DNA of 64,000 bases from assembly GCA_026537415.1 (NCBI GenBank), contig JAFNMF010000001.1, positions 759,811 through 823,810 on the forward strand, written 5' to 3'. The position numbers and the translations under genes were made by a program. Within the stretch, counting starts at the first letter, position 1. Each line of letters begins with the position of its first letter. Shown here one piece after another: positions 23,842-40,006 of this stretch. The notes under the pieces are model-generated. The model was not told the origin of the DNA. It ran no database searches and saw only the letters and a list, made by a program, of their open reading frames with translations. Source of the stretch: Acetobacteraceae bacterium B3987. Lineage in GTDB: Bacteria; Pseudomonadota; Alphaproteobacteria; Acetobacterales; Acetobacteraceae.

Positions 23842-25188
23842 ATGGAGACTCGTGCAATGAACAGAAAAAGATATTTTCTAACGTGGAACTTCCAGGTCGT
23901 TCGACAGAATCCAGAGAGCAAAACACTTTATTGCTCTCCCCTTGATGCCCAGTTTCCCGATGACGCCTTCGCTCTTGAGCTGAAGCAGGATGACATCGCC
24001 ACAAACTGGACCTTTATCCCTCAAGGTGAAGAGATTGCTTCCCACTACACGGACGATATCAAAATAACCTTTAATTCCGAAATGCGGGTCTGGAACCTCC
24101 AAAATAAAGACGGACTGTTCCTGTGTTTTGACACCAAAACCCTTTCATTCTCTCGGGAACAAGCCTCCTTTTGGGAAGGTTTTCTACTACTGACACGTAA
24201 AGAAATTGAGACACTGACACATCTATTAAATCATAAATGGGTCATTCCAAAAACACAGATGATTATGGATGGAAAGGACTTTCAATTTGTTGATACCTTC
24301 AAAATAAAAATTGGAGATTTTGACATTGATATGCGTTACCAACTCCTAAGATATTGGAATAAATACAATGTAACCCTCTACTTTGATGGATGGAAAAGGG
24401 AAACACTTTATTTATACAATCCTGCCATCTACATTACTGCTTACAATAAAGAAGCTATCATGCAGCAATGTAAGATGTGTGTCATCTCACTCCGGAAAAT
24501 GGGCAATTTCACCGGACCAATCATTCTCATGACTGATAAAGATCAAGCTTATATAGACAATCTTTTTGAAGGGGAAAAAGAATATACCGACAACCTCATC
24601 ATTCATAACCTGTATCCAAAGGACTTTCTCTCCTTTGTCTGCTCAAAATATGAAATAACAAATAAGGCTACATTTGCCGGCTACCAACCTCTTCTCTATC
24701 TAGACCCGGATATCATCATAGACAGGCCATTAGTACCACTTCTGGTCCGTGGTCTTTCAAGTGGCAAGATATGTTCACCCGCTGAGGAATTTCACCCAAT
24801 ACAATCTCACATCCCAGTGGGTTCCTCCCTCTTCTCAATGGATGGCATTTCCGGACGCTTCACCCCGGGTATTAACGGAGGGACTATTCTGTTCCCCAAT
24901 ACAGAAAATGACACGATACGGCGTTTTATTGACGAAATACGTCATGTCATCACAAGTCTAGTATTCAAATTTGGACGTGCCTTTAACGGATGGGCCGATC
25001 AAGAGGCTTATAATTATCTCGCGATCAAAACCAACTGGGTCAATTCCAACGCTCTAACATCGTTCACAGCTTATCAAGGCCCTACCTATGACAGACGTCT
25101 GGGCCTCATTCATTTCTGGGGCTTTTCCTCAGAAGAAAAAGTGGAGCGTATGAAGGAATATATGACTATGTTGGACTGTCACCACTGA
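23842..25188 (+). CDS. Glycosyltransferase with N-terminal fascin-like accessory domain
   Basis: Two-part protein of 448 residues (ATG 23857 would give 443). Residues 10-130 match the domain shared with four other proteins here: an opening YFLTWNFQVVRQNPE, then DGLFLCFDTKTLSF and FWEGFLLLTRKEIETL. From about residue 195 a glycosyltransferase region follows (AIYITAYNKEAIMQQCKMC), with a metal/sugar-nucleotide motif D288-P-D290 in LYLDPDIII and a WADQEAYNYL stretch like that of GT8-type enzymes. No signal peptide or membrane segment is visible, so it is probably cytoplasmic. The gene is AT-rich compared with the dcw cluster. Donor and acceptor are unknown. Confidence 0.75.
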   Translation: METRAMNRKRYFLTWNFQVVRQNPESKTLYCSPLDAQFPDDAFALELKQDDIATNWTFIPQGEEIASHYTDDIKITFNSEMRVWNLQNKDGLFLCFDTKTLSFSREQASFWEGFLLLTRKEIETLTHLLNHKWVIPKTQMIMDGKDFQFVDTFKIKIGDFDIDMRYQLLRYWNKYNVTLYFDGWKRETLYLYNPAIYITAYNKEAIMQQCKMCVISLRKMGNFTGPIILMTDKDQAYIDNLFEGEKEYTDNLIIHNLYPKDFLSFVCSKYEITNKATFAGYQPLLYLDPDIIIDRPLVPLLVRGLSSGKICSPAEEFHPIQSHIPVGSSLFSMDGISGRFTPGINGGTILFPNTENDTIRRFIDEIRHVITSLVFKFGRAFNGWADQEAYNYLAIKTNWVNSNALTSFTAYQGPTYDRRLGLIHFWGFSSEEKVERMKEYMTMLDCHH

Positions 25189-25194
25189 GCTAAC

Positions 25195-25243
25195 TGCCGA
25201 CCTGCCCGCCCCGCAGCACACTGACGGAGCGGGCAATACGGCA
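25195..25243. terminator. Two-part hairpin between convergent genes
   Basis: Nested inverted repeats: TGCCG (25195-25199) with CGGCA (25239-25243), and TGCCCGC (25203-25209) with GCGGGCA (25229-25235). It fills the gap between two convergent glycosyltransferase genes. No T-run follows on either strand, so it is at best a weak bidirectional terminator. Confidence 0.45.
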
Positions 25244-25244
25244 A

Positions 25245-26165
25245 TTATGCCCTATCAATTTTACTCCACATAAAGCCGCAAATTACCTTAGGTAAACTAT
25301 TCCTGATCTCTTCCTTTACCAAGGCAACTAACGCCCGATATTCTAACCGGTATTTATTTGTGGTCTCAGGTTCGGGGTGATCCCACGGTTTGGTATCCGC
25401 CACGAAATGAAATATGGACGCATTCTCCTGCGCTTCTTTCACCTGCTCCTGTATATCAGGTTCAAAATAAAGGTAATTTTCATTCATATATTCAGCATAA
25501 AAATTCCATTTTTGTGAAAAATTATAAAGAGATTCCCTAAAAACATGATTTAATATTGATTCATCATAAAATGGCCATTTCTTATTTATGCAATCGATAC
25601 AGTAAGTGGCATCTGATGGTGTAATCGCTTCCATATTAAAAACAACCATACCACTATTTATGTAACGTAACGGATTACCTATGCCCAGCATGTTTCTGCT
25701 TATCTTATTAAAGTCTCCATAATCCTCATATTTTCTAAAATTACGTATCATACAACGAACACCACCGAGCTTCTTATCAGAGGGGAGTTCGTTAATAATC
25801 TTCAGAACATCATCTCTCACCAGCATATCGACATCAATGCTCAATATTTTTTTAAAGTCTTTAAAAATTGTAGGAATTAATAAAGGAAGATATGTTTCTA
25901 GAGGCCGGTTTTCATTATTGGAAAAATTCTTATTCTCTAAAAATGATGAACAATCGATAAATGATATTATACTTCCAAAAGAGGCAACAACACGCTCCAC
26001 AAGCTGGATTAATGTTGTATCAAGGCACTTATAAAGTACAAAGAACTCTACCTTGCTTATATCAGAACAATTATCGAGTATGGATTTTATTGTGACAAGA
26101 GACGGTATTACATATTTTTTATCAAATGAAATAACTATTGGAAATAAGCTCATCACACCCCCCAT
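25245..26165 (-). CDS. Glycosyltransferase family 8-like protein
   Basis: A 306-residue protein that looks like a GT8 enzyme. An N-terminal FPIVISFDKKYVIPSLVTIKSIL strand-helix is followed by the DxD motif in ILSIDVDMLVRDD (Mn and nucleotide-sugar binding), YINSGMVVFNME, and a C-terminal FHFVADTKPWD resembling the HFxGxxKPW motif of the family. The likely start is the fifth codon (ATG at 26153, MSLFPIV). The gene is distinctly AT-rich, suggesting acquisition or relaxed composition. It converges on the preceding glycosyltransferase. Acceptor unknown; a surface glycan is the natural guess. Confidence 0.8.
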   Translation of the reverse strand: MGGVMSLFPIVISFDKKYVIPSLVTIKSILDNCSDISKVEFFVLYKCLDTTLIQLVERVVASFGSIISFIDCSSFLENKNFSNNENRPLETYLPLLIPTIFKDFKKILSIDVDMLVRDDVLKIINELPSDKKLGGVRCMIRNFRKYEDYGDFNKISRNMLGIGNPLRYINSGMVVFNMEAITPSDATYCIDCINKKWPFYDESILNHVFRESLYNFSQKWNFYAEYMNENYLYFEPDIQEQVKEAQENASIFHFVADTKPWDHPEPETTNKYRLEYRALVALVKEEIRNSLPKVICGFMWSKIDRA

Positions 26166-26385
26166 AAGACCATAATTTCATATCCTATAAAATATTTTGT
26201 AATAATTTCAAGAAGATACTCTACACTATCGACTTTACTTTTTAGGAAATATCTCTTCCTGAAACATTATCAGCCATGACAAAATTATTTCGTTCTGGTC
26301 GCATAAAGCAATTGAAACCTGTACCAACTCCATTATCATGCCGCCAGTAATAGCTACCTTGGCAAGGTGGCCATAGAGAGAGCAT

Positions 26386-27753
26386 ATGCCCACCACATCA
26401 CCCAGTCACCATTCCCTCATCATGCTAGTCGTTGGCTTGTTAGTTACCGTCATACTGATTGGGGTTTCCATTCTCATTTCCCTCTCGGAAATCTCTTTTG
26501 CTGCCGCACGGGAAACCCGGATGCGGGCTCTGGCCAAAGAGGGTGACAAACGGGCCCGGGCCTTTCTCCGCCTCCGCCGTAATAGCGGACAGGTGATGAC
26601 AGCCATCCAGATCTGCCTCAATGCCGTCGGGATTCTGGGCGGTGTGGTCGGTGATGCCCTACTGAGCGAACCTTTCGCCGATGGCTTCCATTATCTGGGA
26701 CTATCCACTCCTTTATCGGAAAAAGCTGGGTCTTTTACATCATTCATTCTCGTAACCGGGCTGTTCGTACTTTTTGCCGACCTTCTGCCCAAACGCACGG
26801 CAATGAATGCCCCCGATAAAATCGCCCTAGCCGTAGGCTGGTTCCCTGCCTTAATCCTGAAGCTACTTTATCCTGCGGTATGGGTCTTTTCCCATATTGC
26901 CGATCTGATCCTGAAATTGCTGCGTATTCCTGCCACCGCCACAGTAGAGGCCGTAACGCCAGAGGATCTCCGGGCCATCCTCGCCGCAGGAACGGCCTCC
27001 GGTATTCTGCTGGAGCAGGAACATCAGATGATTCAGAATGTCATGGCCCTACAGAACCGTTCTGTAACTTCTGCCATGACACCACGGGATGAAATTGTTT
27101 ATCTGGATGTTAATGAAAGTCTGGAAAGCCAGCGTGACAAAGTGCGTGTCCGCCCCTATTCCCGCTATCCATTCTGTGATGGATCACTGGATAAAGTGGT
27201 TGGTTCCATCCGTGCAGAAGACGTTCTGGTCGCCGTTGTGGACGAACCGGCTACACTGACCAATCCGCAGAAAGCCTCTCCCAAACAAATCTTCAACATG
27301 CGACGGGATGTTCTCTCTCTCCCCGATACGCTGAATCTCTGGGAAACTCTGGCCCAATTCGACACTCACGGAGCCGGATTTGCACTCATCTTCAATGAAT
27401 ATGGGCTGATTGTCGGGCTAATCACCTATAAGGACATCATGGGTGCCCTGATGGACGGGCTGGCCAATCCTTTTGAAGAACAGGCCATCGTCCGCCGTGA
27501 TGATGATTCATGGCTGATTGATGGTGCCGCTCCCATTCTGGACGTCATCCGTGAACTGGATATTCCCCTCTCCCACGACAATACCGAATTTGACACGATT
27601 GCCGGCTTCATCACGCACCGGCTGCGCCGCATGGCCCGCAAGGCAGACCGTGTTGAAATTGCCGGTTTCCGATTTGAGGTCGTAGATGTCGAGCTGTTCC
27701 GCATCAACCAGCTTCTGGTAACCCGTATGAAGCCCACCAGCAAAAACGGATAA
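26386..27753 (+). CDS. CNNM/CorC-family membrane protein (DUF21-CBS-CorC_HlyC)
   Basis: A 455-residue inner-membrane protein of the HlyC/CorC group, linked to Mg/Co ion transport or tolerance. The N-terminal DUF21 region has about four hydrophobic stretches, starting LIMLVVGLLVTVILIGVSILISL, and contains the typical SEISFAAARETRMRALAKEGD. A CBS pair follows the conserved NVMALQNRSVTSAMTPRDEIVYLD, and a CorC_HlyC domain lies at the C-terminus (DGAAPILDVIRELDIPL). An AGAGAG element lies just before the ATG. It is followed at 14 bases by the nicotinamidase gene. Confidence 0.88.
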   Translation: MPTTSPSHHSLIMLVVGLLVTVILIGVSILISLSEISFAAARETRMRALAKEGDKRARAFLRLRRNSGQVMTAIQICLNAVGILGGVVGDALLSEPFADGFHYLGLSTPLSEKAGSFTSFILVTGLFVLFADLLPKRTAMNAPDKIALAVGWFPALILKLLYPAVWVFSHIADLILKLLRIPATATVEAVTPEDLRAILAAGTASGILLEQEHQMIQNVMALQNRSVTSAMTPRDEIVYLDVNESLESQRDKVRVRPYSRYPFCDGSLDKVVGSIRAEDVLVAVVDEPATLTNPQKASPKQIFNMRRDVLSLPDTLNLWETLAQFDTHGAGFALIFNEYGLIVGLITYKDIMGALMDGLANPFEEQAIVRRDDDSWLIDGAAPILDVIRELDIPLSHDNTEFDTIAGFITHRLRRMARKADRVEIAGFRFEVVDVELFRINQLLVTRMKPTSKNG

Positions 27754-27767
27754 GGTCTGCCCCCATC

Positions 27768-28355
27768 ATGACCTCTCATAGCCCCCTGCTCCCTGATACA
27801 ATCACCAAGCGGGATGCTCTACTCATCATTGATATGCAGAACGACTTCATGCCCGGCGGGGCTCTACCCGTCTCTGGCGGTCCCGCTTGTCTGCCAGCCA
27901 TCAACCACCTCACTCAATACGGCTTCCGTGCTGTCATTGCCTCTCAAGACTGGCACCCTGCGCAGCATTGCTCCTTCAAAGAACAAGGCGGATCTTGGCC
28001 CATACACTGCCTTGCAGGCTCATTCGGTGCTGCTCTGGTTGATGGGTTGGATCAGCAAAACATCACCCACATTATTCGCAAAGGAACGGCCTTGGAGGCA
28101 GATTCAAACTCTGCCTTTTATGACGATCATGGTACCAACACCGGTTTAACCGCTCTACTATGCGGCTTGGGCATCAAACGAGTTTTCCTATGCGGCGTAG
28201 CGTTGGATGTCTGCGTTCTTGCTACGGCACGCCATGCAGCACGAGATGGCTTTGAGACATATATCCTACAACAGGCCTCGGCAGGAATCGGGGCATTGCC
28301 CACCTCCCTCCACGAAGAAAACCTCATCCTCTACCGAGGAAATATAGGGGCTTAA
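27768..28355 (+). CDS. pncA: Nicotinamidase / pyrazinamidase PncA
   Basis: Cysteine amidohydrolase that converts nicotinamide to nicotinate for NAD+ salvage. The 195 residues carry the triad context: Asp in LLIIDMQNDFMPGGALP, Lys in IRKGTALEADSNSAF and Cys in FLCGVALDVCVLATARHA. Metal-binding SQDWHPAQHCSF is also present. The length fits PncA. It starts shortly after the CNNM-type gene and is probably co-transcribed with it; no functional link between the two is evident. Confidence 0.93.
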   Translation: MTSHSPLLPDTITKRDALLIIDMQNDFMPGGALPVSGGPACLPAINHLTQYGFRAVIASQDWHPAQHCSFKEQGGSWPIHCLAGSFGAALVDGLDQQNITHIIRKGTALEADSNSAFYDDHGTNTGLTALLCGLGIKRVFLCGVALDVCVLATARHAARDGFETYILQQASAGIGALPTSLHEENLILYRGNIGA

Positions 28356-28378
28356 CGCCTCTGCGCACCCAGAAACCG

Positions 28379-29806
28379 TTATTGTTTCTGGAAACCCGCC
28401 ACATGCAGCCCCTTCTGAAGGTAGGCATTCCTTTTCATGACATTCCAGACCAAACCACTGCGAAGATTTTCGATCATCAGCAGAATGGGGCCCTGATCAA
28501 TCCCCAGTTGCTGCCCATCAACCCAGAAGCTGTCTCCATCGACAAAGCTGGGATTGAAAGCATCCAAAAAGCCATACCGATTATAGACCTTGCTTCCATA
28601 CCGGGCCTTCATAGCCTGAAGTGCGGGCAAAGCAATTTCTGGGGCAAAAGCCACGGACCCACCCACCGCTGTGGGAGCAATCGTGCCGTCATCAAGTACA
28701 TAATCCCAACCAGCCCCACGGGCACTATAGGCAAGGAAGTGACGTCTCTGGCCATCAACATTCCTATAAGCATCCCCCGGACCATCCGAGGCCGTCAGCC
28801 CCCAAATATCTGCACTATAATCCTTCCAGTGCCCCGGATTATGACGGGCATATTCACGCTGTGAGTAAGCTGCCTTTCGACTATTCTGGAAATAGTTGTA
28901 GCCCCGTTGGCGGCTCGCTTTATCCAGAATACCACGGAAATCTACCCAGCATTCGCTATACTGATGCCCAAATAAAGGAGCGAAATTAAGCAGGTTATAC
29001 CCATAAAAATTGCCCTGCTGCCTCTTATGTGTCTCTGTCCAGCGGTCCCATGTGTCAGCGGGCAAAGCATGTGTCGGGGAACCAAGTGCCAGCAGATAGA
29101 GCATCAGCCCTTCATTATATCCTGTCCACTGCGAAGACAGAAAATGATCCGGTGGCATCCACCCCATACTCAGCCATGAGCTTTTACCTCCGGTCATCCA
29201 CCGCCAGTCCACCCGACGATAAAGCCCATCTGCCAGCGTTCGTATCTCCCGCTCCTGCTGGCTCGGACCATCATAATAAGACTGAACAAACAATACTCCG
29301 CCCATCAGCAAGGCCGTGTCTATGCTGGAAAGCTCCGACCAATCCGCTACACGCAACCCTGTTTCGGGATCCAGAAAATGATAGAAAAACCCATGAGTGC
29401 CCGCCGTACCACGGGCCGCATCACCTTGCGGTAACGCCGCCAGAAAACGCAATGTAAGAAGGGTGCGCTCTACAGCCTGCTGCCGTGTGATATACCCCCG
29501 CTCCACACCAATTCCATAAGCGGTCAGACCAAAGCCTACACTGGCTATGCTGGCAGCACCATGCGGCAAAGGCGCACGATCTGGCACAAGCCCATTACGA
29601 GGATTCGCTGTCTCCCAGAACCAATTAAACGTCCGATGTTCGAGGTCCTCTACAAAAAGACGCTCCTGAGACGATAAAGGATAGGACGTCGCTTTAGCAG
29701 TCGGTATAGCCCCAGACACTAGCGCGGCCAGAACAATACCGGCTGCCAATATCCATAAGTTCCTAAGAGCACAATATACGGGCTGAATCATCTTCATAGA
29801 AAGCAT
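28379..29806 (-). CDS. Secreted glycoamylase-like glycoside hydrolase (GH144 type)
   Basis: Exported protein of about 475 residues. The start at ATG 29806 is chosen because GGAGAAGAGAGG lies just before it; the frame is open eleven codons further. A signal peptide (LWILAAGIVLAALVSGAIPTAKA) precedes an (alpha/alpha)6-type domain with EDLEHRTFNWFWETANPRNGLVPDRAP, SVGFGLTAYGIGVERGYITR, a GYNEGLMLYLLALGSPTH segment with a likely catalytic Glu and a C-terminal DGDSFWVDGQQLGIDQGPILLMIENLRSG. These are hallmarks of PF10091 glycoamylase-like proteins, which include GH144 endo-beta-1,2-glucanases. A role in periplasmic beta-glucan turnover is inference. Confidence 0.85.
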   Translation of the reverse strand: MLSMKMIQPVYCALRNLWILAAGIVLAALVSGAIPTAKATSYPLSSQERLFVEDLEHRTFNWFWETANPRNGLVPDRAPLPHGAASIASVGFGLTAYGIGVERGYITRQQAVERTLLTLRFLAALPQGDAARGTAGTHGFFYHFLDPETGLRVADWSELSSIDTALLMGGVLFVQSYYDGPSQQEREIRTLADGLYRRVDWRWMTGGKSSWLSMGWMPPDHFLSSQWTGYNEGLMLYLLALGSPTHALPADTWDRWTETHKRQQGNFYGYNLLNFAPLFGHQYSECWVDFRGILDKASRQRGYNYFQNSRKAAYSQREYARHNPGHWKDYSADIWGLTASDGPGDAYRNVDGQRRHFLAYSARGAGWDYVLDDGTIAPTAVGGSVAFAPEIALPALQAMKARYGSKVYNRYGFLDAFNPSFVDGDSFWVDGQQLGIDQGPILLMIENLRSGLVWNVMKRNAYLQKGLHVAGFQKQ

Positions 29807-29871
29807 GTCCTCTCTTCTCCAAGCCCTTACATGTCCCATGCAGAAGCTAACCCTACCCTCTTGATGAGCCT

Positions 29872-30921
29872 CTAATCCAACATTCTACCATTGATAATGG
29901 CAGAGCTTCGCCGACTATAATGCGTCTCTTTCCCCACAGGCTCATGGTGCGCTGCAGTATCTTCGAAAATAGTATATTCAATGCCGTTCGAATAACTATG
30001 AATCTGCCTTACTTTATCCTCATACCGCCCACGATATTCGTGAATCACCATGGAATATAATAAGGGGCCTGTAACACGCAGAATACCGTAAGCCCCTACC
30101 CCATGAATGGCTTTCTTATACAAAGCAATACTGCACATGACCTGCTGTATGATACGGCGCATCAAAGGATGGCCCGCAGCGCATATTATGTAATACTGCT
30201 CATATTCACCATAAGAGATATGTTCAATCTCTCTATGCATACGGGCCCCATGATACCAGAACGAAAGCAGGAACCGGTCGTCTGGCTGTACAACTAGATC
30301 AAGGGGATAGGAGATAACAGTTTTCAAATCGAGATATACACCGCCCACAGCATATAAGCACAGATAACGAAAGAAATCAGCACGAGCAGCCAGATAATCA
30401 GGACTGATAGACTGGTAATATTTCAGAAACTCATCACCATAATTCTCTTTAATAAATGTCTCTATGTCATAGTACCCGCCCTCTGACCAGAAATAGAACG
30501 TATAATTCTGGTTAAGAGAAACGATATTGTTTCTATTTTCGATAAAAGCTTTTGGATATACGCCCGGCTCTTTAGGGAAAATACCTATCTGATGAATCTG
30601 ATGAGCAATATGCTCCTGCTCAGGAAACTCCGGCACTCGGGGCGGCAACATTTCAAGATCAATCAGGCGAAATGTTTCACACCGCTCCATGTGAGGGCAG
30701 TAGGCCTCAGAAAGATCAGGAGATGCGGAAAGATACCCTTTGCCCTTCTTGAAGAAACCAACACGCGTAACAACCTGACGGTGAGCCTCAAACCCTGCCT
30801 CTATGAGGTCATCCTCTGTCGCCACCGGTGGAGCATCGTCCTCATAATATTCGCACAGGAATTTCTGAACAATCTTACGATCAATAATGGCTAGATAGGT
30901 ATTGTAACAAGAAACGAACAT
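29872..30921 (-). CDS. Sugar transferase with DXD motif (GT32/capsule type) and N-terminal shared domain
   Basis: A 349-residue protein. Residues 1-90 include KGKGYLSASPDLSEAY and CETFRLIDLEML, the C-terminal half of the domain shared with four other proteins in this window. From about residue 104 it looks like a glycosyltransferase sugar-binding-region protein: HIAHQIHQIGIFPKEP, SPDYLAARADFFRYLCLYAVGGVYLDLK, where D198 begins a D-x-K version of the DxD motif. No export signal is visible. It lies seven bases after the stand-alone shared-domain gene, so the two are probably co-translated and may work as a pair. Confidence 0.7.
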   Translation of the reverse strand: MFVSCYNTYLAIIDRKIVQKFLCEYYEDDAPPVATEDDLIEAGFEAHRQVVTRVGFFKKGKGYLSASPDLSEAYCPHMERCETFRLIDLEMLPPRVPEFPEQEHIAHQIHQIGIFPKEPGVYPKAFIENRNNIVSLNQNYTFYFWSEGGYYDIETFIKENYGDEFLKYYQSISPDYLAARADFFRYLCLYAVGGVYLDLKTVISYPLDLVVQPDDRFLLSFWYHGARMHREIEHISYGEYEQYYIICAAGHPLMRRIIQQVMCSIALYKKAIHGVGAYGILRVTGPLLYSMVIHEYRGRYEDKVRQIHSYSNGIEYTIFEDTAAHHEPVGKETHYSRRSSAIINGRMLD

Positions 30922-30928
30922 GCCGCCC

Positions 30929-31576
30929 TCAAAATTCTATATCTTTAAGACGCTTAATGCGCATGTTATACTGTTTTTCCGATACAAACCCTTGGAAAGA
31001 AAAGGTCGCCATTTCACCTTTTTTCATACGACCTACCTTCGCAAAAGTAGGTATATTTTCTAAAAAGCCAATGCGTTTCCTATCAAAAGACGCAACGAAT
31101 GGCTTGTTCTCTCCCGGGGGGATAAACTGTAGGCCGGAGATTTCCGTATTGTCGTTATGACAGACAATATGACTCATGCCGGGGTCTGTGACAGCCAGAA
31201 GCCCTTTATAGACATCATAAGGAAGGGGGCAAAATAACTCCCAGTCTGCTACACCGCCAGAAAAAGTGGTCTTGTTGTTTGATGGGTTAATGCTGAGATA
31301 ATCACCCGTCTCATCATTACACAACGCCACCAGTCCCCTATCCTGCGGACATATCCTCAAGGGGGACATCTCTACTAGCATATTGAAAATATTACGCCAC
31401 TGCGGCACGAATTTTTGCGGGAACGGATAAGGGCTAGCCACAAACCCACTGACAAAAGAGCCTTGAAGCGGCACCCGGGCCAATATTTTACGATGGGGCG
31501 TATAGCATAAAACATGCCCAAAACAGTCCATGAACCAGACTTTATCAAACGAGTAAGGTAAAACTTCCTCGGGCAT
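30929..31576 (-). CDS. Stand-alone fascin-like domain protein (copy 1)
   Basis: About 215 residues with no known name. It is clearly homologous to the 209-residue protein just upstream: VWFMDCFGHVL against LWVMDWFGHLI, and GLVALCNDETGDYLSINPSNN with DWELF (residues 112-116) against SLVALEDQDSGTYFSINPRNH with DWERF. The pattern of a Gly-x-Tyr-Leu-Ser strand followed by Trp-Glu-x-Phe resembles fascin or beta-trefoil modules. A GTG codon precedes the chosen ATG. No catalytic motif, signal peptide or membrane segment is seen. The adjacent sugar transferase suggests a glycan-binding or partner role, which is inference. Confidence 0.7.
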   Translation of the reverse strand: MPEEVLPYSFDKVWFMDCFGHVLCYTPHRKILARVPLQGSFVSGFVASPYPFPQKFVPQWRNIFNMLVEMSPLRICPQDRGLVALCNDETGDYLSINPSNNKTTFSGGVADWELFCPLPYDVYKGLLAVTDPGMSHIVCHNDNTEISGLQFIPPGENKPFVASFDRKRIGFLENIPTFAKVGRMKKGEMATFSFQGFVSEKQYNMRIKRLKDIEF

Positions 31577-31663
31577 CACCCATTCCCTAAAAACAGCATC
31601 AGTTCACCTGAAAACTTCTTCGCTTAAAAGCTATTGGTGCGCAGACAACAGTTCTATGCAGCA

Positions 31664-31696
31664 GAAAAAATCCCATCCCTCTGAACAGGGATGGGA
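31664..31696 (-). terminator. Rho-independent terminator
   Basis: Nine-base perfect stem CCCATCCCT (31672-31680) with AGGGATGGG (31687-31695), six-base loop. On the minus strand it is followed by ATTTTTT, giving a classical terminator just after the 209-residue shared-domain gene that ends at 31705. It separates that gene from the downstream pair. Confidence 0.85.
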
Positions 31697-31704
31697 CAAA
31701 AATC

Positions 31705-32334
31705 TTACAATTCTTTCTCTGACCGAACGATAACAAGTTCCGCAACATCACCATGCGGACTGGCCAGCTTGACTTCCACAGACGAACCCGGTGCCGTCGT
31801 GCCAATCTTAGCCAGGTTTTCCAGATTACGGGTAATGGAGAATGCAAATTCACCCAACCACGCAAAATTGCCGACATTTTCGACCACGGAAGGCCAGGCA
31901 AGAGTAGGAACGGGCTGTCCGTTCATCTCTACCTCACCATAGGAATGATCCTGCAGGATAGCCAAACCATCCAGCATTTCCTTGGTCAGAAGAATGAAAC
32001 GCTCCCAATCATACACAGCTGGAGAGTTCCAATGAGTGTCATGGTTCCGAGGATTAATCGAGAAATACGTCCCGGAATCCTGATCTTCAAGAGCTACAAG
32101 GCTCGCCCCTGCATCCACAAACTGGGCATCCGGCAGATTGTGCGCAACACTCGATGTATGACGGAACATAACACGGGTTGGTGTCTTCAACGGCCAGGAA
32201 GCCAGTACGAATGTATCTGGATAGGCCCCCGGGGAAAAATAACTACGGATCAGAGGACCATCTTCAGAAGGCTGCTCAATCAGATGACCGAACCAGTCCA
32301 TGACCCAAAGACGCTGTAAACGATTCTCGCTCAT
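31705..32334 (-). CDS. Stand-alone fascin-like domain protein (copy 2)
   Basis: A 209-residue uncharacterised protein. It starts MSENRLQRLWVMDWFGHLIEQP, carries DSGTYFSINPRN and DWERF at residues 109-113, and ends in a more variable segment with short beta-rich stretches (SSVEVKLASPHGDVAELVIVRS). It is a paralogue of the next minus-strand gene and of the N-terminal region of the transferase at 23.8 kb. It has its own terminator, so it is probably a single-gene unit; the AT-rich region before it would hold the promoter. Function unknown; a carbohydrate-binding beta-trefoil is the best structural guess. Confidence 0.7.
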   Translation of the reverse strand: MSENRLQRLWVMDWFGHLIEQPSEDGPLIRSYFSPGAYPDTFVLASWPLKTPTRVMFRHTSSVAHNLPDAQFVDAGASLVALEDQDSGTYFSINPRNHDTHWNSPAVYDWERFILLTKEMLDGLAILQDHSYGEVEMNGQPVPTLAWPSVVENVGNFAWLGEFAFSITRNLENLAKIGTTAPGSSVEVKLASPHGDVAELVIVRSEKEL

Positions 32335-32681
32335 GGTAACACCTCATTAAATCAGGGTATGAACCGCATTATAACAGGATAGAAAGAATGTAAACATCCC
32401 TCTACAGGAAGGAAATTTAAAGATAACAATAATAAAATTTAATTGATTAAGTTGCAAACAAAGAAATAGAGAAAACACTTAACATATTTACTTCTATCAA
32501 AGTAAATATTTAGACAGAAAATAGATCCGCCCATCATATTCCAAGTGTCATATCTTTAATGTTGCTCTAAAAAAAAGAATGATACTATCACTCTAGTAGA
32601 AAATAAGAGGAAGAAAGCTTACAAAAAACTTCAATATTCTTAAAACCGAACACTCTTCTCAGTCAAGAATACGGAAATGTA
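32335..32681. other. AT-rich intergenic region
   Basis: About 350 bases between a minus-strand gene start and the tRNA-Arg 3' end. It is strongly AT-rich, with short A- and T-runs and no reading frame or convincing hairpin. It should hold the promoter of the 209-residue shared-domain gene and the end of the tRNA transcript, but I cannot assign exact elements. Confidence 0.5.
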
Positions 32682-32758
32682 TGGTGCGCCCTGCTGGATT
32701 CGAACCAGCGACCCACAGCTTAGAAGGCTGTTGCTCTATCCAGCTGAGCTAAGGGCGC
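32682..32758 (-). tRNA. tRNA-Arg (anticodon TCT)
   Basis: Complete 77-base cloverleaf on the minus strand. The acceptor GCGCCCT pairs with AGGGCGC and the CCA end is encoded. The anticodon loop CTTCTAA reads TCT (arginine, AGA codons), and the T-loop GGTTCGAATCC is standard. It lies 20 bases downstream of tRNA-Pro and is probably processed from the same transcript. Confidence 0.93.
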
Positions 32759-32778
32759 TCTCGCCTTGCTGTGCAACG

Positions 32779-32855
32779 TGGTCGGGGCGCCCGGACTCGA
32801 ACCGGGGGCCTCCTGTACCCAAAACAGGCGCGCTACCAGGCTGCGCCACGCCCCG
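32779..32855 (-). tRNA. tRNA-Pro (anticodon TGG)
   Basis: Complete 77-base cloverleaf on the minus strand. The acceptor CGGGGCG pairs with CGCCCCG, CCA is encoded, and the anticodon stem CCTGT/ACAGG encloses a loop with TGG (proline). The T-arm CCCGGTTCGAGTCCGGG is canonical. Confidence 0.93.
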
Positions 32856-32935
32856 ACGACGTGAGCCCTTCTTAAAGGGACTTCTTCTTACAGGCAAGAG
32901 ACTTTCTTGCCTAAAAAAAGTGTTTTTTCAAAAAA

Positions 32936-33451
32936 TTATGCTTTGTGACTGCGATTTAGAGGGGCAACAAACTGCGGTGCCATATCCCACGGAAACAAAA
33001 CCCACGTATCCTGCGGTACTTCCGTAACAAAATGATCCGTAAAAGGACGTCCATCCGGTTTGGCATACAGACAGGCGAACACAGCCTTAGGTAGCATGTC
33101 CCGCACATAACGAGCCGTAACACCAGAATCGACCAGATCATCCACAATCAGAAAGCCTTCTCCATCCCCAGCGGCTTCGGGAGATTTCAGCAGCTTGGGC
33201 TCCTGCTGTGTCCCCTCCTCTCCTGCATAACTGGCAACAGACACACTCTCAATCAGGCGACATCCCAACTCCCGCCCCAAAATGGCCGCCGGAATCAACC
33301 CGCCCCTTGTAATAGCAACAATACCACGGAACGGCCGGTATTTACGCATCAGCTCCGTAGCCAGAAGGCGAGCATCCCGGTGCAGCTGATCCCACGTTAC
33401 CGTAGCATAATTGATACTCTGTGAGCCCTGTGTCTCTACGCCACCTGTCAT
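32936..33451 (-). CDS. gpt: Xanthine-guanine phosphoribosyltransferase Gpt
   Basis: Purine salvage enzyme that joins guanine or xanthine to PRPP. The 171-residue type I PRT fold shows RGIVAITRGGLIPAAILGRELG and the PRPP loop FLIVDDLVDSGVTARYVRD with its paired aspartates, then the C-terminal DTWVLFPWD, whose Trp is typical of XGPRT. An N-terminal tail of about ten residues is variable. It lies between tRNA-Asn and tRNA-Pro on the same strand. Confidence 0.93.
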   Translation of the reverse strand: MTGGVETQGSQSINYATVTWDQLHRDARLLATELMRKYRPFRGIVAITRGGLIPAAILGRELGCRLIESVSVASYAGEEGTQQEPKLLKSPEAAGDGEGFLIVDDLVDSGVTARYVRDMLPKAVFACLYAKPDGRPFTDHFVTEVPQDTWVLFPWDMAPQFVAPLNRSHKA

Positions 33452-33553
33452 GGTCTGCTCTTACCCTTCATTCATGATTCAGCCAGTTCTCCCCACACGA
33501 TAAGGTATGAACAGGCAGAATCACAACATACTGATCTTTTATGAGAGAGATAC

Positions 33554-33584
33554 AAAAAAGGCCCGCACCTTTACGGTCGGACCT
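33554..33584 (-). terminator. Terminator after tRNA-Asn
   Basis: On the minus strand GGTCCGACC pairs with GGTGCGGGCC (one bulge, one G-T pair) around GTAAA, followed by six Ts. It begins 12 bases past the tRNA-Asn CCA end, as expected for a tRNA transcript terminator. Confidence 0.65.
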
Positions 33585-33595
33585 ACAAAAAAGGC

Positions 33596-33671
33596 TGGCT
33601 CCCGAAGTAGGACTCGAACCTACGACCCAGCGATTAACAGTCGCTTGCTCTACCAACTGAGCTATTCGGGA
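33596..33671 (-). tRNA. tRNA-Asn (anticodon GTT)
   Basis: Complete 76-base cloverleaf on the minus strand. The acceptor TCCCGAA pairs with TTCGGGA, discriminator G, encoded CCA. The anticodon loop CTGTTAA reads GTT (asparagine); the T-arm GTAGGTTCGAGTCCTAC is canonical. Confidence 0.94.
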
Positions 33672-33762
33672 TCAGCTGGAGCCTATCTACCCAATCTCTT
33701 CTGGCAGGTAAAGCCCCCGAACACATTTATCCGAAAAAATCTTCTATAATACGTTCAGAATG

Positions 33763-34254
33763 TTAGCCTTCACCCTTCTGACTAGCTTCCAGCTCTTCCC
33801 GCCCCTCGGTTGCCAACTGATCCACACGGTCATTTTCCTCATGGCCAGAATGACCTTTCACCCAGTGCCAATCCACCTTATGACGTTTGGCCGCCTCCAG
33901 AATACGACGCCACAGGTCCATGTTAGCCACAGGGTCCCCCGATGCATTACGCCAGTTGCGCCGCACCCACCCCGTATGCCAACGGGTAATGCCGTTCCGC
34001 AGATATTCACTATCCGTATAAAGATTAACTACACAGGGGCGTGTAAGCGTTTCCAGCGCAACCGCAGCAGCTGTAAGCTCCATGCGGTTATTGGTCGTTT
34101 CCGCCTCTCCGCCTTTCATGGTGCGCTCATGCCCCTGACAGCGAAATAGAATCCCCCACCCACCGGGACCCGGATTAGGCTTGCAGCCACCGTCCGTCCA
34201 AATCTCCACCTGTGTTGTGGGAGGCGACATCCCTTCATCCGCTCTTTCAGACAT
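33763..34254 (-). CDS. rnhA: Ribonuclease HI
   Basis: Cleaves the RNA strand of RNA-DNA hybrids in the cytoplasm. The 163-residue protein shows VEIWTDGGCKPNPGPGGWGI (first catalytic Asp), TTNNRMELTAA (Glu), LYTDSEY (second Asp), WVKGHSGHEENDRVDQLA (His and last Asp), so the active site is complete. The start overlaps the thrB stop by eight bases; an in-frame ATG at codon 9 is an alternative. It is the last gene of an ispH-thrB-rnhA unit, an order common in alphaproteobacteria. Confidence 0.95.
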   Translation of the reverse strand: MSERADEGMSPPTTQVEIWTDGGCKPNPGPGGWGILFRCQGHERTMKGGEAETTNNRMELTAAAVALETLTRPCVVNLYTDSEYLRNGITRWHTGWVRRNWRNASGDPVANMDLWRRILEAAKRHKVDWHWVKGHSGHEENDRVDQLATEGREELEASQKGEG

Positions 34255-35197
34255 CGGACACCTTCTGGAAATGATGAAGTCGCCGCTGATAAGCCCACGG
34301 ATCTTTTTTAGTCACCAAGGCACCCGCTGGCGTATGTACCCAATCATACAAACGGGTCAGCAGAAAACGCATGGCCGCTCCCTGACATAGAACCGGCAGC
34401 ATCTTGTGTTCTGCCGCCGTCAAGGGACGAACCTGCTCATAGCCCCGCAACAGAGCCTCCGCCCAGTCCTGCCGGTAATGGCGTTCATCTTCAAAGCACC
34501 ATGCATTCAGGCAGATGGCCAAATCGTATGCAAGAAAATCCGTGCAGGCAAAATAGAAGTCGATAACGCCAGAGAACTGACCGTCCCGGAAAAAGACGTT
34601 ATCCATGAACAGATCCGCATGAATCTGCCCACGTGGCAGAGCATCAGCTGCCGGCCATGCGTCCACGATGGAAGAAAGTGCCGTGCGGGTCTCGGCAATC
34701 AGCACTGCTACCGCTGTATCCCCGCCATCCGTGCAACGAGAGAAAAGCTCCACCCACCCTTCTGGTGCCAGAGCATTGGCCCTTTCAGCCTTATAGCCCA
34801 GCCCTGCTTCATGCAAACGGGCCAGACCACGCCCAACCTGTTCACAGGCCTGTGACGTCGCAGCTTCCAGAGACCGACCCTCCAGAAAACTGACCAAAAT
34901 GGCCGGACGCCCCGCCAACTGTCGCAAGGACACCCCATCCTTCGCCACAATGGGCTGAGGGCACGCAATACCCTGTTCAGCCAGATGGGCCATCAATCCT
35001 AGAAACCAGGGGAGTTCCGCTGGTTTCATACGTTTTTCAAACAATGTCAGGATAAAACGACCCTGAGTAGTCTCCACCAGGAAGTTGCTGTTCTCAATCC
35101 CTTCCGCAATTCCTGCAAAAGACCGGAACTCCCCCACATCGTAAAGAGAAAGAAAGTTCCGCATCTCCTCCTCATGCAGTTCCGTATAAACCGCCAT
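34247..35197 (-). CDS. thrB: Homoserine kinase ThrB (APH-fold type)
   Basis: Phosphorylates L-homoserine for threonine synthesis. The 316-residue protein is of the aminoglycoside-phosphotransferase fold, not the GHMP fold: GIAEGIENSNFLVETTQGRFILTLFEKR at the N-terminus and the catalytic-loop stretch RGQIHADLFMDNVFFRDGQFSGVIDFYFA with the Brenner-like HxDxxxxN and DFxxA residues. This is the usual alphaproteobacterial ThrB. Six bases separate it from ispH, and it overlaps rnhA by eight, giving a tight operon. Confidence 0.93.
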   Translation of the reverse strand: MAVYTELHEEEMRNFLSLYDVGEFRSFAGIAEGIENSNFLVETTQGRFILTLFEKRMKPAELPWFLGLMAHLAEQGIACPQPIVAKDGVSLRQLAGRPAILVSFLEGRSLEAATSQACEQVGRGLARLHEAGLGYKAERANALAPEGWVELFSRCTDGGDTAVAVLIAETRTALSSIVDAWPAADALPRGQIHADLFMDNVFFRDGQFSGVIDFYFACTDFLAYDLAICLNAWCFEDERHYRQDWAEALLRGYEQVRPLTAAEHKMLPVLCQGAAMRFLLTRLYDWVHTPAGALVTKKDPWAYQRRLHHFQKVSDV

Positions 35198-35203
35198 AAG
35201 GTA

Positions 35204-36226
35204 TCAGACCGCATCAGAGAGCGGATGAGGAAGTCGGAAATTAATATTCTCCTCCTTCACGATGCGCTCCTCGATGGTAACGTCATAACGGATGGAAAGC
35301 TGTTCGATCATTTCCTGCACGAGGCTTTCCGGTGCAGAGGCACCAGCACTCATGCCCAGCGTCCTCACGCCTTCCAGTTCATTCCAGTCCATATCGGAGA
35401 CCTTCGGAACCAGCAGTGCCCGCTTTGCAAGGGAACGCTCGGCCACCTCACGCAGTCGCTGTGAGTTGGAAGAATTCGGTGAGCCAATAACGATGACCAG
35501 ATCACATTCTGCCGCCAGTTCCTTCACCGCCATCTGTCGGTTCGTCGTGGCATAACAAATGTCTTCCCGGCGAGGCCCCACAATATTGGGGAAACGGGAA
35601 CGTAGAATATCTACAATCTCTGCCGTGTCATCCACAGACAGGGTCGTCTGCGTAATGAAGGCCAGACGATCCACGTCTTTAGGCTGAACCTCGGCTGCTT
35701 CTTTTGCGTCATTAATCAACGTCACGGCACCCGGCGGCAACTGTCCCATAGTACCGACAACTTCTGGATGACCGGCATGACCAATCATCAGAATATGACG
35801 CTGCTCCGGGCCACCACCGGCGAAATGACGCTCAGCTTCCCTGTGAACCTTAGATACAAGCGGGCATGTCGCATCCAGATAAAGCAGATTGCGCCGCTGC
35901 GCTTCCGCTGGAACGGATTTAGGCACACCATGAGCCGAAAACACGACATGGCCATCTTCCGGAACTTCATCCAGCTCCTCGACAAAAATGGCACCTTTGG
36001 CTTCCAGTCCTTCCACGACCGTGCGGTTATGCACGATCTCGTGACGGACATAGACAGGAGCTCCATAACGGCGCAGAGCCTCCTCAACCACTCGGATGGC
36101 ACGGTCGACCCCGGCACAGAAACCACGTGGCCCAGCCAGCAGAATCTTCAACGGGGGCTTACCCGTCGCTGAATCTGCTCCGGGGACGGCAGAGTTGGAG
36201 GTTACAGGCGTCGTCTGTTCTGACAT
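35204..36226 (-). CDS. ispH: 4-hydroxy-3-methylbut-2-enyl diphosphate reductase IspH
   Basis: Last enzyme of the MEP isoprenoid pathway, an Fe-S protein making IPP and DMAPP, which feed undecaprenyl phosphate for the wall pathway. Three Fe-S cysteines are seen in [27 protein letters not shown] and [15 protein letters not shown], and substrate residues in YVRHEIVHN and VFSAHGV. ATG 36226 (MSEQTTPV) is chosen, giving 340 residues; the frame is open far upstream to 36838, but that region overlaps an opposite-strand lipoprotein gene and is not family-like. Confidence 0.95.
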
Positions 36227-36391
36227 AATCTTCCCCAGGCAGGCGATGAACGATACGATATTGAATGGTCCGGTGATGCTCCATACAAGATTATGGGCTA
36301 CCCTGCACCACCACCTTGGGCCCTTATATCGTCCGTATTGCCGTTTGCTGCAATGTCCTGCACCATTTTCTTGTGGAGTTTTCTGAGTCCG

Positions 36392-36994
36392 ATGCCTGCA
36401 TTCTCCCCCTCTTCCCGCATCTTTTCCCGCCTCGCTGCGGGCCTCGGCTCTCTCATGCTGGCAGGCCTCCTCAGTGGGTGCGAAGATACAGATACCACCA
36501 ATACCTTTGCTCCAGCCTGCCCCAAATTCGATGTGCCAGGCCAGGTAGCGGACCGTATCACTTATGATGGAAAAGGGCTGGATGCCGCCCATCGCCTGAC
36601 CTCTGCCCATATTCTGGGTGTTCAGGGCGACTGTCGTAATGGCCCGCAGGATGAACAAAAACGTCCTATGACCCGTGTCCGGGTTAGCCTGAATCTTCAG
36701 CTGGAGCGTGGCCCTGCTGCCACCGACAATACAGTGACAATCCCCTACTTTGTCGCCATCCTTCAAGATGGTGCCATTGTAGATAAGAAAATCTTTACCG
36801 AGACGATCAAACTGCCTCCGACGGTCTCCGTCAGTCACAGCAACACGCCGCTGCGTTTTATTGACGTGCCGACGGGCAACAACCCACAGATCAGCCCCTA
36901 CTCCATGGAAATCGGGCTACAGCTGAACCATGACGAGCTGGATTATAACCGCAGCCACCTACGCACAGCCCAGTTCCATGAGCATGTGCAATAA
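36392..36994 (+). CDS. Predicted lipoprotein of unknown function
   Basis: A 200-residue exported protein. From ATG 36392 the signal peptide is [18 protein letters not shown] with the lipobox LLSGC, so it is probably lipid-anchored. The mature part is beta-rich and hydrophilic ([53 protein letters not shown]). I do not recognise a named family. An upstream start at 36293 would add 33 residues that spoil the signal peptide. It is divergent from ispH and ends before a strong terminator. Confidence 0.75.
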
Positions 36995-37021
36995 ATCATC
37001 CGCCATCTGGTAGATCATGCA

Positions 37022-37055
37022 GAAAAGGCCCTCCTGATGTGGAGGGCCTTTTCTT
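37022..37055. terminator. Strong bidirectional Rho-independent terminator
   Basis: AAAAGGCCCTCC (37023-37034) pairs perfectly with GGAGGGCCTTTT (37041-37052) around a six-base loop, with TTTTCTTT after it on the + strand and A-runs giving Ts on the minus strand. It lies between the convergent lipoprotein and glycosyltransferase genes and can serve both. Confidence 0.9.
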
Positions 37056-37057
37056 TA

Positions 37058-38989
37058 TCATATCTCATGCAATGGAATCTGACCTTGCCGTTCCGCCACC
37101 AGAGGGTCAAGGACATAACGCCACTCCTCTTTCAGACGAGAAGCGACATCAGCTTCCTCCACCATATCTAGCAGAGCAAGAAGCCGCTCCTGCCAGGTTT
37201 CACGCACAATATTTTCGGCCTGAACCACCGCTGCAATGCGCCGCAAATTCGCTAATTCTTCCAGAAAACCATCAAGACGAATCAGGATATTCTCATTCAC
37301 CCCATCATGTGGATCATTCAACTGGCAGATAAAGGAATTGGCCCAATAATCAGCATAACGCTCCACACCAAAGGACATGGCACCGTCTAACCCGCTATTG
37401 CGGGCATATTTCCAAACCCACTCGATAATCGATTTATAATAATAATGCGAAATATAGATATCCGCACAACTATCATAATCAGCGAAGGCTGGGTCTGCCC
37501 CAATACCGGGTGGCGGATTGCGGTAGTTATGAATAGCCCCATCAGACAGCCTATAAGTAAATTTCTCTGCCTGTACCCAGACCGGATGATGCGGCCGGGA
37601 CTGAATGGCCCGCCCGGGGCGAACAGCAGATTTTACAAGCCGCCAACCTTCGCCAATCCCGCCACGCGAAACAATATTACGGTTCCGCTGTATCAAGGGC
37701 TTCACAAGGTCTGACAACCCTTCTTGATTGACTTCAGAAGCTATGAACTTCCAGTTCAAAGCAATGGCATCACTCTCCCAAAGAGAAAAGCGTTCTAGAT
37801 ACTCACCAATTGTCCGATATGATGGTGACAGAGTAATAAATTCATCGCCATCAAGAATGAAGCACCATTCATAATCCAGAATATTCGGCAAGACATTCAG
37901 GCCATGCCCATAAGCCTTCATCTGGGCAGACATACCCGGCTGAACATGATTCTCGATGAAGGTAACAATCCCTTCATCATGCAGGGCCTTCAAAATAAGT
38001 TCAGAACGATCATTATTGTCGTTACTGTAAATAAAGAAATGCTCGACCCCTATGCTTCGATGATAGGCAATCCACTCCAGAATGTAGATTCCTTCATTCC
38101 GGATAGTAGACATCATGCAGACACGCTTGCGTGGCTCCACACTGGCCCGGGCCGTATGCAACGTCGCTTGAACGAACCCTGCCAACGCATCTACCTGACC
38201 ATACGCCAACACGACATCACTCAATGGGCAGCCACGCTCTGCCGCAGGGTCGCTGTCCCTATTCTCAAGCCAACGAGAAAGATACTGCCAACCGTCTCTC
38301 CACGGGCTATCACCTAACTGACGGAAAAAAGCCTCACGAAGCGGATCCTGACTCAACAATCGCTGCCCTATCTCACGAACAACGGACCAAGATGTCACGG
38401 GAACCATAGCATCCAGCAGCCACGTCAGATGACTACCAGCATATGTAACGATCAACTGTTCCAAATAATCGGCTGACGGAAATACCCTGAAATGAGCGGT
38501 CATTTCCTCACCCAGACGCCGCAGCCTATCAGTCGCTTCTACCTCATGCAGTTGGAACTCCTCCCAGTCGAACATCTGGTTACAGTCCCCGAGAAACTCG
38601 TTGACACCACCTTGACTGTTCCATGGTTGAGCTGTGCAGCACTGACTGGGGCGAAAAAGGTTTCGCAACCCGACACGCCCCTTATGTTTTGTACTTTCAA
38701 CACGACGGAAAGGAAGGATAGCTCCCCTATAGGAAAAATGCTTTATCCAAAGAAGAGGAGCCTCCTTTTCCCCGGAATCTATGACAAGGAATATGTAGTC
38801 AGGATAATCTGGCAATGTCATCGCCAATAAAGGACAATAGAGGGGAATACCATTCTCATCCCGACGGGTCATCTCATCGGACCGGAGATGACAAACTCCC
38901 CCCCCTATCCTTTGGACTGCAAGCCAGCCCTGATGCGCCGTTTCCAGATAATGAAAAACCACCTCAGTCACCCTATGCACTCCCGGCAT
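37058..38989 (-). CDS. Large glycosyltransferase 2-like protein with N-terminal shared domain
   Basis: A 643-residue protein in three parts. Residues 10-155 carry a version of the shared accessory domain (NGIPLYCPLLAMTLPDYPDYIF; D141-W-E-E-F145). Residues 165-280 are helical. From residue 288 there is a GT2-like domain of the PF13704 type: RVCMMSTIRNEGIYILEWIAYHRSIGVEHFFIY, then D380-G-D382-E in WCFILDGDEFITL, the likely metal site, and HNYRNPP further on. A C-terminal helical tail follows. No signal peptide is present. It is divergent from the GT8-like gene, 66 bases away. Substrate unknown; a surface polysaccharide role is inferred. Confidence 0.75.
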   Translation of the reverse strand: MPGVHRVTEVVFHYLETAHQGWLAVQRIGGGVCHLRSDEMTRRDENGIPLYCPLLAMTLPDYPDYIFLVIDSGEKEAPLLWIKHFSYRGAILPFRRVESTKHKGRVGLRNLFRPSQCCTAQPWNSQGGVNEFLGDCNQMFDWEEFQLHEVEATDRLRRLGEEMTAHFRVFPSADYLEQLIVTYAGSHLTWLLDAMVPVTSWSVVREIGQRLLSQDPLREAFFRQLGDSPWRDGWQYLSRWLENRDSDPAAERGCPLSDVVLAYGQVDALAGFVQATLHTARASVEPRKRVCMMSTIRNEGIYILEWIAYHRSIGVEHFFIYSNDNNDRSELILKALHDEGIVTFIENHVQPGMSAQMKAYGHGLNVLPNILDYEWCFILDGDEFITLSPSYRTIGEYLERFSLWESDAIALNWKFIASEVNQEGLSDLVKPLIQRNRNIVSRGGIGEGWRLVKSAVRPGRAIQSRPHHPVWVQAEKFTYRLSDGAIHNYRNPPPGIGADPAFADYDSCADIYISHYYYKSIIEWVWKYARNSGLDGAMSFGVERYADYWANSFICQLNDPHDGVNENILIRLDGFLEELANLRRIAAVVQAENIVRETWQERLLALLDMVEEADVASRLKEEWRYVLDPLVAERQGQIPLHEI

Positions 38990-39952: not shown

Positions 39953-40006
39953 CTGTAATTCCGTAACATATTTTCCTTGAATATAGACAGACTGGTGAGG
40001 CGTTTC

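Follow-up and report, generated by a model that had tools for sequence, protein, structure and literature searches.

Five genes of the window with a shared, trefoil-type domain

The window analysed here is a 64,000-nucleotide stretch of Acetobacteraceae bacterium B3987 (contig JAFNMF010000001.1, positions 759,811 to 823,810). It encodes five proteins, designated P1 to P5, which, as judged by profile comparison, share one domain. An earlier note on this DNA had reported five open reading frames (ORFs) with a common fascin-like domain, marked by a Trp-Glu-x-Phe segment and a Gly-x-Tyr-(Leu/Phe)-Ser strand and placed N-terminal to different types of glycosyltransferase (GT) in three of the proteins. 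As a whole, that observation is partly confirmed: the frames lie where they had been placed and the shared domain stands, whereas the motif letters are exact in only part of the proteins and the statement that the domain makes up the whole of two proteins is not exact.

P1 (23842-25188, forward strand) starts with the trefoil domain (residues 8-131; 23863..24234, +), which was delimited by profile matches and motif letters and holds a single putative sugar-site motif, R-x5-W-E-x-F. Behind it lie a tail common to stand-alone proteins (residues 132-170; 24235..24351, +), recognised with the stand-alone profile, model positions 6-169 of which align to P1 residues 5-167, and a catalytic region (GT8-like, containing the motifs DxD and DQ; 24397..25185, +; limits approximate), located by its family profile and invariant residues. 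The other four genes are on the reverse strand. P2 (29872-30921, -) consists of a predicted reduced trefoil domain in which Cys replaces the Trp (residues 1-104; 30610..30921, -), placed by hhalign and a leave-out profile, and a GT32 catalytic domain with DxK instead of DxD (residues 102-338; 29908..30618, -). P3 (30929-31579, -) is a stand-alone protein, a term we use for open frames of fewer than 300 residues; its trefoil domain with a WELF motif (31184..31558, -) is supported by the P3-P4 alignment and by profiles. P4 (31705-32334, -) has the trefoil at residues 2-118 (31981..32331, -), with WERF at residues 110-113, and then an α/β tail at residues 119-209 (31708..31980, -), seen as helices and strands of the model beyond residue 118. 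In P5 (37058-38989, -), the trefoil domain (residues 12-160; 38510..38956, -; WEEF at residues 142-145), assigned by hhalign and profiles, precedes a GT92/Glyco_tranf_2_4 catalytic domain (residues 290-495; 37505..38122, -; PF13704 at 1e-17 and PF01697 at 2e-13). P4, P3, and P2 are co-directional, and P3 and P2 are 7 bp apart.

The three fused enzymes are indeed of different types. P5 matches GT92 and Glyco_tranf_2_4 with 51 and 64.8 bits against curated cut-offs of 23 and 27.5, and P2 matches PF04488 (Gly_transf_sug/GT32) above the cut-off at E 8.2e-11. DxK stands where DxD is expected in the GT32 part of P2, and the pattern GG[VI]Y.D.K occurs in 26 of the 26 P2-family rows having the region (two of the 28 rows lack it). 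Because of this substitution we file P2 as GT32-like with an altered motif, and the metal use of the domain may differ from the usual one. P1 has no Pfam match at E ≤1, PF01501 included. The profile of its family matches the GT8 enzyme LgtC at E 0.08, and Asp288 and Asp290 are invariant in 14 rows including P1; since PF01501 is not matched above its cut-off, we call P1 GT8-like only.

Homology and fold of the shared domain

Trp-Glu-x-Phe is exact in four of the five proteins (WEGF in P1, WELF in P3, WERF in P4, and WEEF in P5) but reads CETF in P2, where the Trp is lost to Cys. The segment is absent from all 49 other non-overlapping ORFs of at least 100 residues in the window; ORFs with an identical copy in the retrieved loci, among them the five proteins, were outside this count. 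The Gly-x-Tyr-(Leu/Phe)-Ser strand is exact in two of the five, P3 (GDYLS) and P4 (GTYFS); its counterparts are GLFLC in P1 and GYLS in P2, and P5 has none such. In plain pairwise alignments of the ten pairs, each compared with 1000 shuffles, P3-P4 (z 22.1, p 0/1000) and P1-P4 (p 0.005) were significant, P4-P5 was borderline (p 0.054), and the seven remaining pairs were not significant, so that three of the five proteins can be joined from the window alone. With eight of ten raw pairs not below p 0.05, these alignments would also suit the view that there is no common domain and that a short motif recurs by chance or convergence.

Profiles carry the comparison further. A search with P4 of 249 genomes of its family found relatives in 29, and the profile started from P4 covers P1 over model positions 1-161 of 180, P1 having joined the profile along the way. 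The first profile, of stand-alone proteins and P1, gave P5 at E 0.46 and did not list P2 up to E 10, a result that, taken alone, would have excluded both; the links to both were supplied by GT92 and GT32 relatives added later. In a profile scan of the genome of the window, the P1 and P3 domains score E 2.8e-18 and 3.7e-33, each being itself a row of the profile used. The wide profile, A5, holds P1 to P5 or near copies and was trained on members of this family, which deprives a match to P1, P2, or P5 of its independence. The independent evidence comes from a stand-alone-only profile and from leave-one-family-out profiles.

The stand-alone-only profile (35 proteins, none fused), searched against 2099 ORFs, finds P1 at E 1.5e-4, the GT92 fusion L064 at 8.6e-6, the C-terminal fusion L154 at 8.5e-9, and the GT61 fusion L158 at 4.1e-6; P2 and P5 themselves are not among its matches at E ≤0.05. 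When each profile was rebuilt without the family under test, the scores were 21.9 bits for P1, 19.5 for P4, 14.5 for P3, 8.9 for P2, and 6.6 for P5, and none of 1000 shuffles per protein reached the score of its protein. The top shuffle of P5 came to 5.8 bits; on these scores, P5 taken singly is the weakest of the five, and its assignment depends on GT92 relatives. By hhalign, the stand-alone family is linked to the P1 family at 96.9%, to the P5 family at 85.4%, to the wider GT92 family at 89.8%, and to the P2 family at 83.5%; the P1 family is linked to the P2 family at 90.8% and to the wider GT92 family at 77.9%, and the P5 family to the wider GT92 family at 98.3%. Weak values were obtained for P1-P5 (30.3%), P5-P2 (9.8%, not significant), and wider GT92-P2 (10.6%). 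Controls covered seven pairs, with P5-P2 and wider GT92-P2 outside this set: reversed and 40 column-shuffled alignments gave at most 4.0%, the column shuffles alone reaching at most 1.5% for the P2-family links (40 each; one value among these controls may repeat an earlier one) and 1.7% for the P5/GT92 links.

The three weak hhalign pairs and the narrow margin of P5 over its shuffles would again be in keeping with a chance motif. Against that view stand the shuffle controls of both kinds, the detection by a profile holding no fused protein, and the agreement of domain limits across fusions, and we consider it, already disfavoured, very improbable. The similarity claimed in the earlier note is thus hardly visible in raw alignments (two of ten pairs below p 0.05), but profiles link all five proteins above shuffles. 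On this profile evidence, the five proteins share one domain.

The P4 model (predicted local distance difference test score 94) is a β-trefoil over residues 2-118, with the Trp-Glu motif directly before the last trefoil strand. Its best fold matches, fascin, CBM92, and designed trefoils, tie, the highest Z being 10.6 (fascin), and many of the listed matches stop near residue 118, before the tail. The fold of P4 is, by its model, that of a β-trefoil, and the common fascin-like β-trefoil proposed earlier holds in the sense that the profiles link the five proteins and the P4 model supplies the fold. The fold match to fascin itself is tied with that to CBM92, which is closer by motif. As modelled for P4, the stand-alone form is a trefoil plus a second small domain, not a trefoil alone; part of this α/β tail is also found in P1 and in GT61 and GT90 fusions with the stand-alone-only profile. 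When the P2 model was compared with known folds, the matches were mainly transferases covering residues 102-338, not the N-terminal domain, and our own reading of the N-terminal strands suggests that they fit a reduced trefoil. P3 and P4 have no domain match in Pfam or NCBIfam, and Pfam models miss the trefoil copies of the window.

Fusions, distribution and gene neighbourhood

Repeated fusion to transferases in other Acetobacteraceae, which would follow from the earlier proposal, was found. At a threshold of 0.001, the wide profile has matches in 80 of the 299 family genomes scanned and in 36 of the 102 genera; outside the family the domain is rare. In a class sample, three of 337 genomes match at 0.0001, all three inside the family, and in a phylum sample, eight of 299 match at 0.001, six of them outside the family. 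Because the wide-profile scans scored only the best candidates, up to 13 or 14 per genome, these genome counts are lower bounds. One of the outside matches (L200), found by the wider profile, is a three-repeat CBM92 domain (phmmer 3.6e-13; DUF7910 match 2.1e-18) with a stop flagged, and two others (L202 and L203) are short pieces, both with a stop flagged. In the remaining three, the same trefoil is fused to GT2 and an FkbM methyltransferase (L199), to an FkbM methyltransferase alone (L204), and to GT32 (L201).

The 66 complete fusions collected here have two sources, loci retrieved with P1, P2, and P5 and a set of 40 regions hand-picked among the genome matches listed, so that their shares are not a census. 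The domain is N-terminal in 46, C-terminal in 17, and internal in three. Pfam matches in these fusions are to Glyco_tranf_2_4 (27), GT92 (27), GT61 (8), GT32 (7), GT8 (3, at E ≤0.001, best 1.8e-8), and GT90 (1); 10 of the 17 C-terminal fusions match GT92 and six match GT61. A comparison of the catalytic parts of the 65 fusions in the tree gave 27 GT92, 20 GT8-like of the P1 type, eight GT61, seven GT32, and three other. No glycoside hydrolase or lyase is present among the 11 Pfam families in the 66 fusions. Composite architectures include WcbI-trefoil-GT61 (L158), GT90-trefoil-methyltransferase (L160), and trefoil-DUF1796-like-GT90 (L152; 1008 residues, the DUF1796 part below cut-off). In the window itself, a GT2 fused to DUF1796, a putative papain-like peptidase (Pfam 23.1 against a cut-off of 23), is encoded at 39977-41443 on the forward strand.

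In the tree, the stand-alone proteins form one side of a branch with support 98, and the 12 architecture labels change 21 times, compared with a minimum of 11 and a mean of 58.5 for shuffled labels; the tree is resolved at few forks, 48 of 97 inner branches being open. The domain does occur with several GT families, as the idea of recombination among transferases had it, but since the tree clusters by architecture, it appears to have been shuffled a limited number of times, and free exchange among enzymes is rejected.

The genome of the window holds eight copies at E ≤10, five of them in the window. The others are a second P2-like gene, a stand-alone gene about 88 kb further on, and L195, a frame of 506 residues (E 4.5e-5, outside the profile) that begins with GT92 and carries the domain close to its C-terminus. 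As this order is opposite to that of P5, a single genome contains both arrangements of the domain with GT92.

A stand-alone gene lies at most 18 bp before a trefoil-GT32 gene on the same strand in eight pairs from seven loci (L001, which is the window, L004-L008, and two pairs in L035), and in L015 a GT92-trefoil gene follows a stand-alone gene after 18 bp. The stand-alone form is named in Saccharibacter, Bombella, Parasaccharibacter, Asaia, and Swaminathania (13 loci). Its neighbours in L036 (Saccharibacter), L039 (Swaminathania), and L042 (Asaia) are DciA, photolyase, porin, and other non-transferase genes. The 10 neighbours scanned in these loci, one of them without any match, place the stand-alone gene among housekeeping genes; an IPP transferase in this set is a tRNA-modifying enzyme and not a GT. 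A transferase operon for every stand-alone gene is ruled out by these loci.

A putative glucoamylase (PF10091, 1.1e-82; 28379-29839, -) adjoins the P2-P4 cluster, and a glucoamylase homologue is also close to the trefoil genes in L035. The G+C content is 0.39 at 24001-26000 (P1/P6) and 0.45 at 30001-32000 (the P2-P4 cluster); the remaining 2-kb stretches of the window have 0.49-0.61. The low values may reflect horizontal gain.

The Trp-Glu site and its proposed role

In CBM92, according to excerpts of the study describing it (PMC11039641), the WExF Trp stacks on glucose, Glu binds O3 and O4, and an Arg in two of the lobes binds O2, the first lobe having Ser there. By our reading of the alignment letters, this Arg or Ser would be six residues before the Trp. 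The same excerpts report that CBM92 binds non-reducing terminal glucose itself and that some members are without the Trp in one or more sites. Trp-dependent binding of β-glucan is a further mark of CBM92.

Among 115 trefoil domains non-redundant at 80%, Trp (102/114), Glu (109/114), and Phe (104/114) are the three strongest columns, and in this alignment Trp and Glu are the two most constrained ones of the domain; they are the only invariant columns among the 17 C-terminal fusions. WExF occurs in 93 of the 115, counted over the whole ORF, and arose in 46 of 5750 shuffled domains. Six residues ahead of the Trp, an Arg is found in 23 of the 46 N-terminal fusions, in 14 of the 17 C-terminal ones, and in all three internal ones, but in just one of 35 stand-alone copies; of the 14 domains on frames cut by a locus end, which were counted apart, seven have it. 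The residue there is Arg in P1, Ser in P3 and P4, which equals the residue of the first CBM92 lobe, and Cys in P5 and P2.

In searches of the PDB, the stand-alone profile found CBM92-B at E 1.1e-6 as a sum over its three lobes, of which the best gives 0.14 by itself, and the profile WE falls on the WE of every lobe; designed trefoils appeared from 3.6e-6 via a strand part without the motif. The wider profile found CBM92-B at 1.1e-11, a designed trefoil at 5.1e-14, and fascin at 6e-4, and the best matches of the P1-family profile were CBM92, albeit weak (0.026 and 0.048). Because designed trefoils match or exceed the scores of CBM92, part of the profile score is at the level of the fold. By motif, the closest relative is CBM92 rather than fascin. 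As sequence comparison has it, the domain keeps one CBM92-type site under strong constraint.

The Trp and Glu might instead be kept for folding, the trefoil being a structural or oligomerisation module that joins transferases by fascin-like packing. The tied fascin matches are consistent with such a module, and a stand-alone gene directly before trefoil-GT32 in eight pairs would fit a partner subunit. However, the Trp and Glu of the loop that leads into the final strand are under stronger constraint than columns elsewhere in the domain, and fused copies repeatedly have the Arg needed to complete a CBM92 site, which makes a purely structural role unlikely. Regulation of the fused enzyme by a sensed free sugar or sugar nucleotide, instead of the holding of an acceptor polymer, would agree with the binding of terminal glucose by CBM92, since a small ligand fits, and with the methyltransferase fusion without a GT in L204. 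The reported affinity of CpCBM92A for free glucose is millimolar, however (1.84 mM; PMC11039641, excerpt), and we regard sensing as quite improbable.

We favour, with a probability of roughly 60%, the reading that the domain is a single-site CBM92-like β-trefoil acting as an acceptor-binding module. On a transferase, such a site would most simply serve to hold the acceptor glycan, the ligand and the function being deduced by analogy. The Trp would stack on a terminal gluco-configured sugar of the growing glycan, and the Glu would hydrogen-bond the sugar, together with the Arg in many fused copies. In this way the domain could keep the acceptor close to the catalytic part of the enzyme, much as GalNAc-transferases do with their lectin domain. 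P3 and P4, which stand alone, carry the same putative site without a catalytic domain and, beside P2, may work for an enzyme in which the trefoil no longer has this Trp. This suggests an exchangeable part that would help different enzymes to grip their sugar target. The earlier interpretation is supported for a common trefoil domain that is fused to transferases of different families and recurs in other Acetobacteraceae; its functional part, acceptor binding, would follow by analogy.

Several observations weigh against acceptor binding. The domains have one motif as a rule, two or more WE-x-(F/L/Y/I/V) motifs being present in just four of the 115, and among the native domains compared, the weakest binder was a CBM92 in which the last lobe alone has the Trp (PMC11039641, excerpt). 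P2 is without the motif Trp, and the Arg is replaced by Ser or Cys in four of the window proteins. Designed trefoils score about equal to or above CBM92 in the PDB searches, and no transferase family was found among the 10 stand-alone neighbours scanned. Searches of the open literature turned up no binding data, ligand, or glycan structure for the organism.

More tentatively, one CBM92-like trefoil could in Acetobacteraceae be an interchangeable acceptor reader, attached at either end of at least five transferase families and also free as a subunit, and direct many non-homologous enzymes to glycans with the same terminal sugar. A CBM92-like site on biosynthetic transferases of various families would allow a simple test of how acceptor specificity is set, with the Trp, Glu, and Arg as a small set of residues open to direct testing. 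With the domain as a marker, many GTs of acetic acid bacteria that now go unannotated could be identified and sorted, and in the window it adds something that Pfam models miss.

We found no paper in the open literature, where absence is not absence from print, on a carbohydrate-binding module appended to a GT, on β-trefoil GTs in Acetobacteraceae, or on a bacterial GT92 with a carbohydrate-binding part, and, judged from titles, none on point for bacterial fascin or trefoil GTs.

Comparison with known systems places the domain closest to CBM92 (7ZOH and 7ZOI; PMC11039641, excerpt). Both are β-trefoils, of 125-150 residues in CBM92 and likewise here, with the WExF Trp-Glu site in the loop that leads into the last strand of a lobe and, in P1 and many fused copies, the Arg six residues before the Trp. 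In CBM92, however, WExF ends each of three lobes, members share at least 37% identity, and the partners are glycoside hydrolases or lyases in almost every case, whereas one site is the rule here, the partners are transferases, and the fold alignments of P4 give 14-16% identity to CBM92-B and 10% to CBM92-A. Because of the single site and the low identity, we file the domain as CBM92-like, not as CBM92. Plant GH5_14 enzymes have a 'fascin-like' trefoil, DUF7910 (PF25490; PMC12656318, excerpt); this model matches two relatives weakly (0.0051 and 0.011), and its cut-off is reached by no Acetobacteraceae copy scanned. Fascin (PF06268) shares the trefoil fold and the profile match noted above, but P1 to P5 have no Pfam match to it at E ≤1. 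Fascin has four trefoils, and the proteins described here have one. GalNAc-transferases (GT27) offer the functional analogy of a lectin domain beside a catalytic GT domain. Their lectin domain is a ricin-type trefoil, from another trefoil family, and the domain described here differs further in being joined to other GT families, in both N- and C-terminal positions, and in occurring as stand-alone copies.

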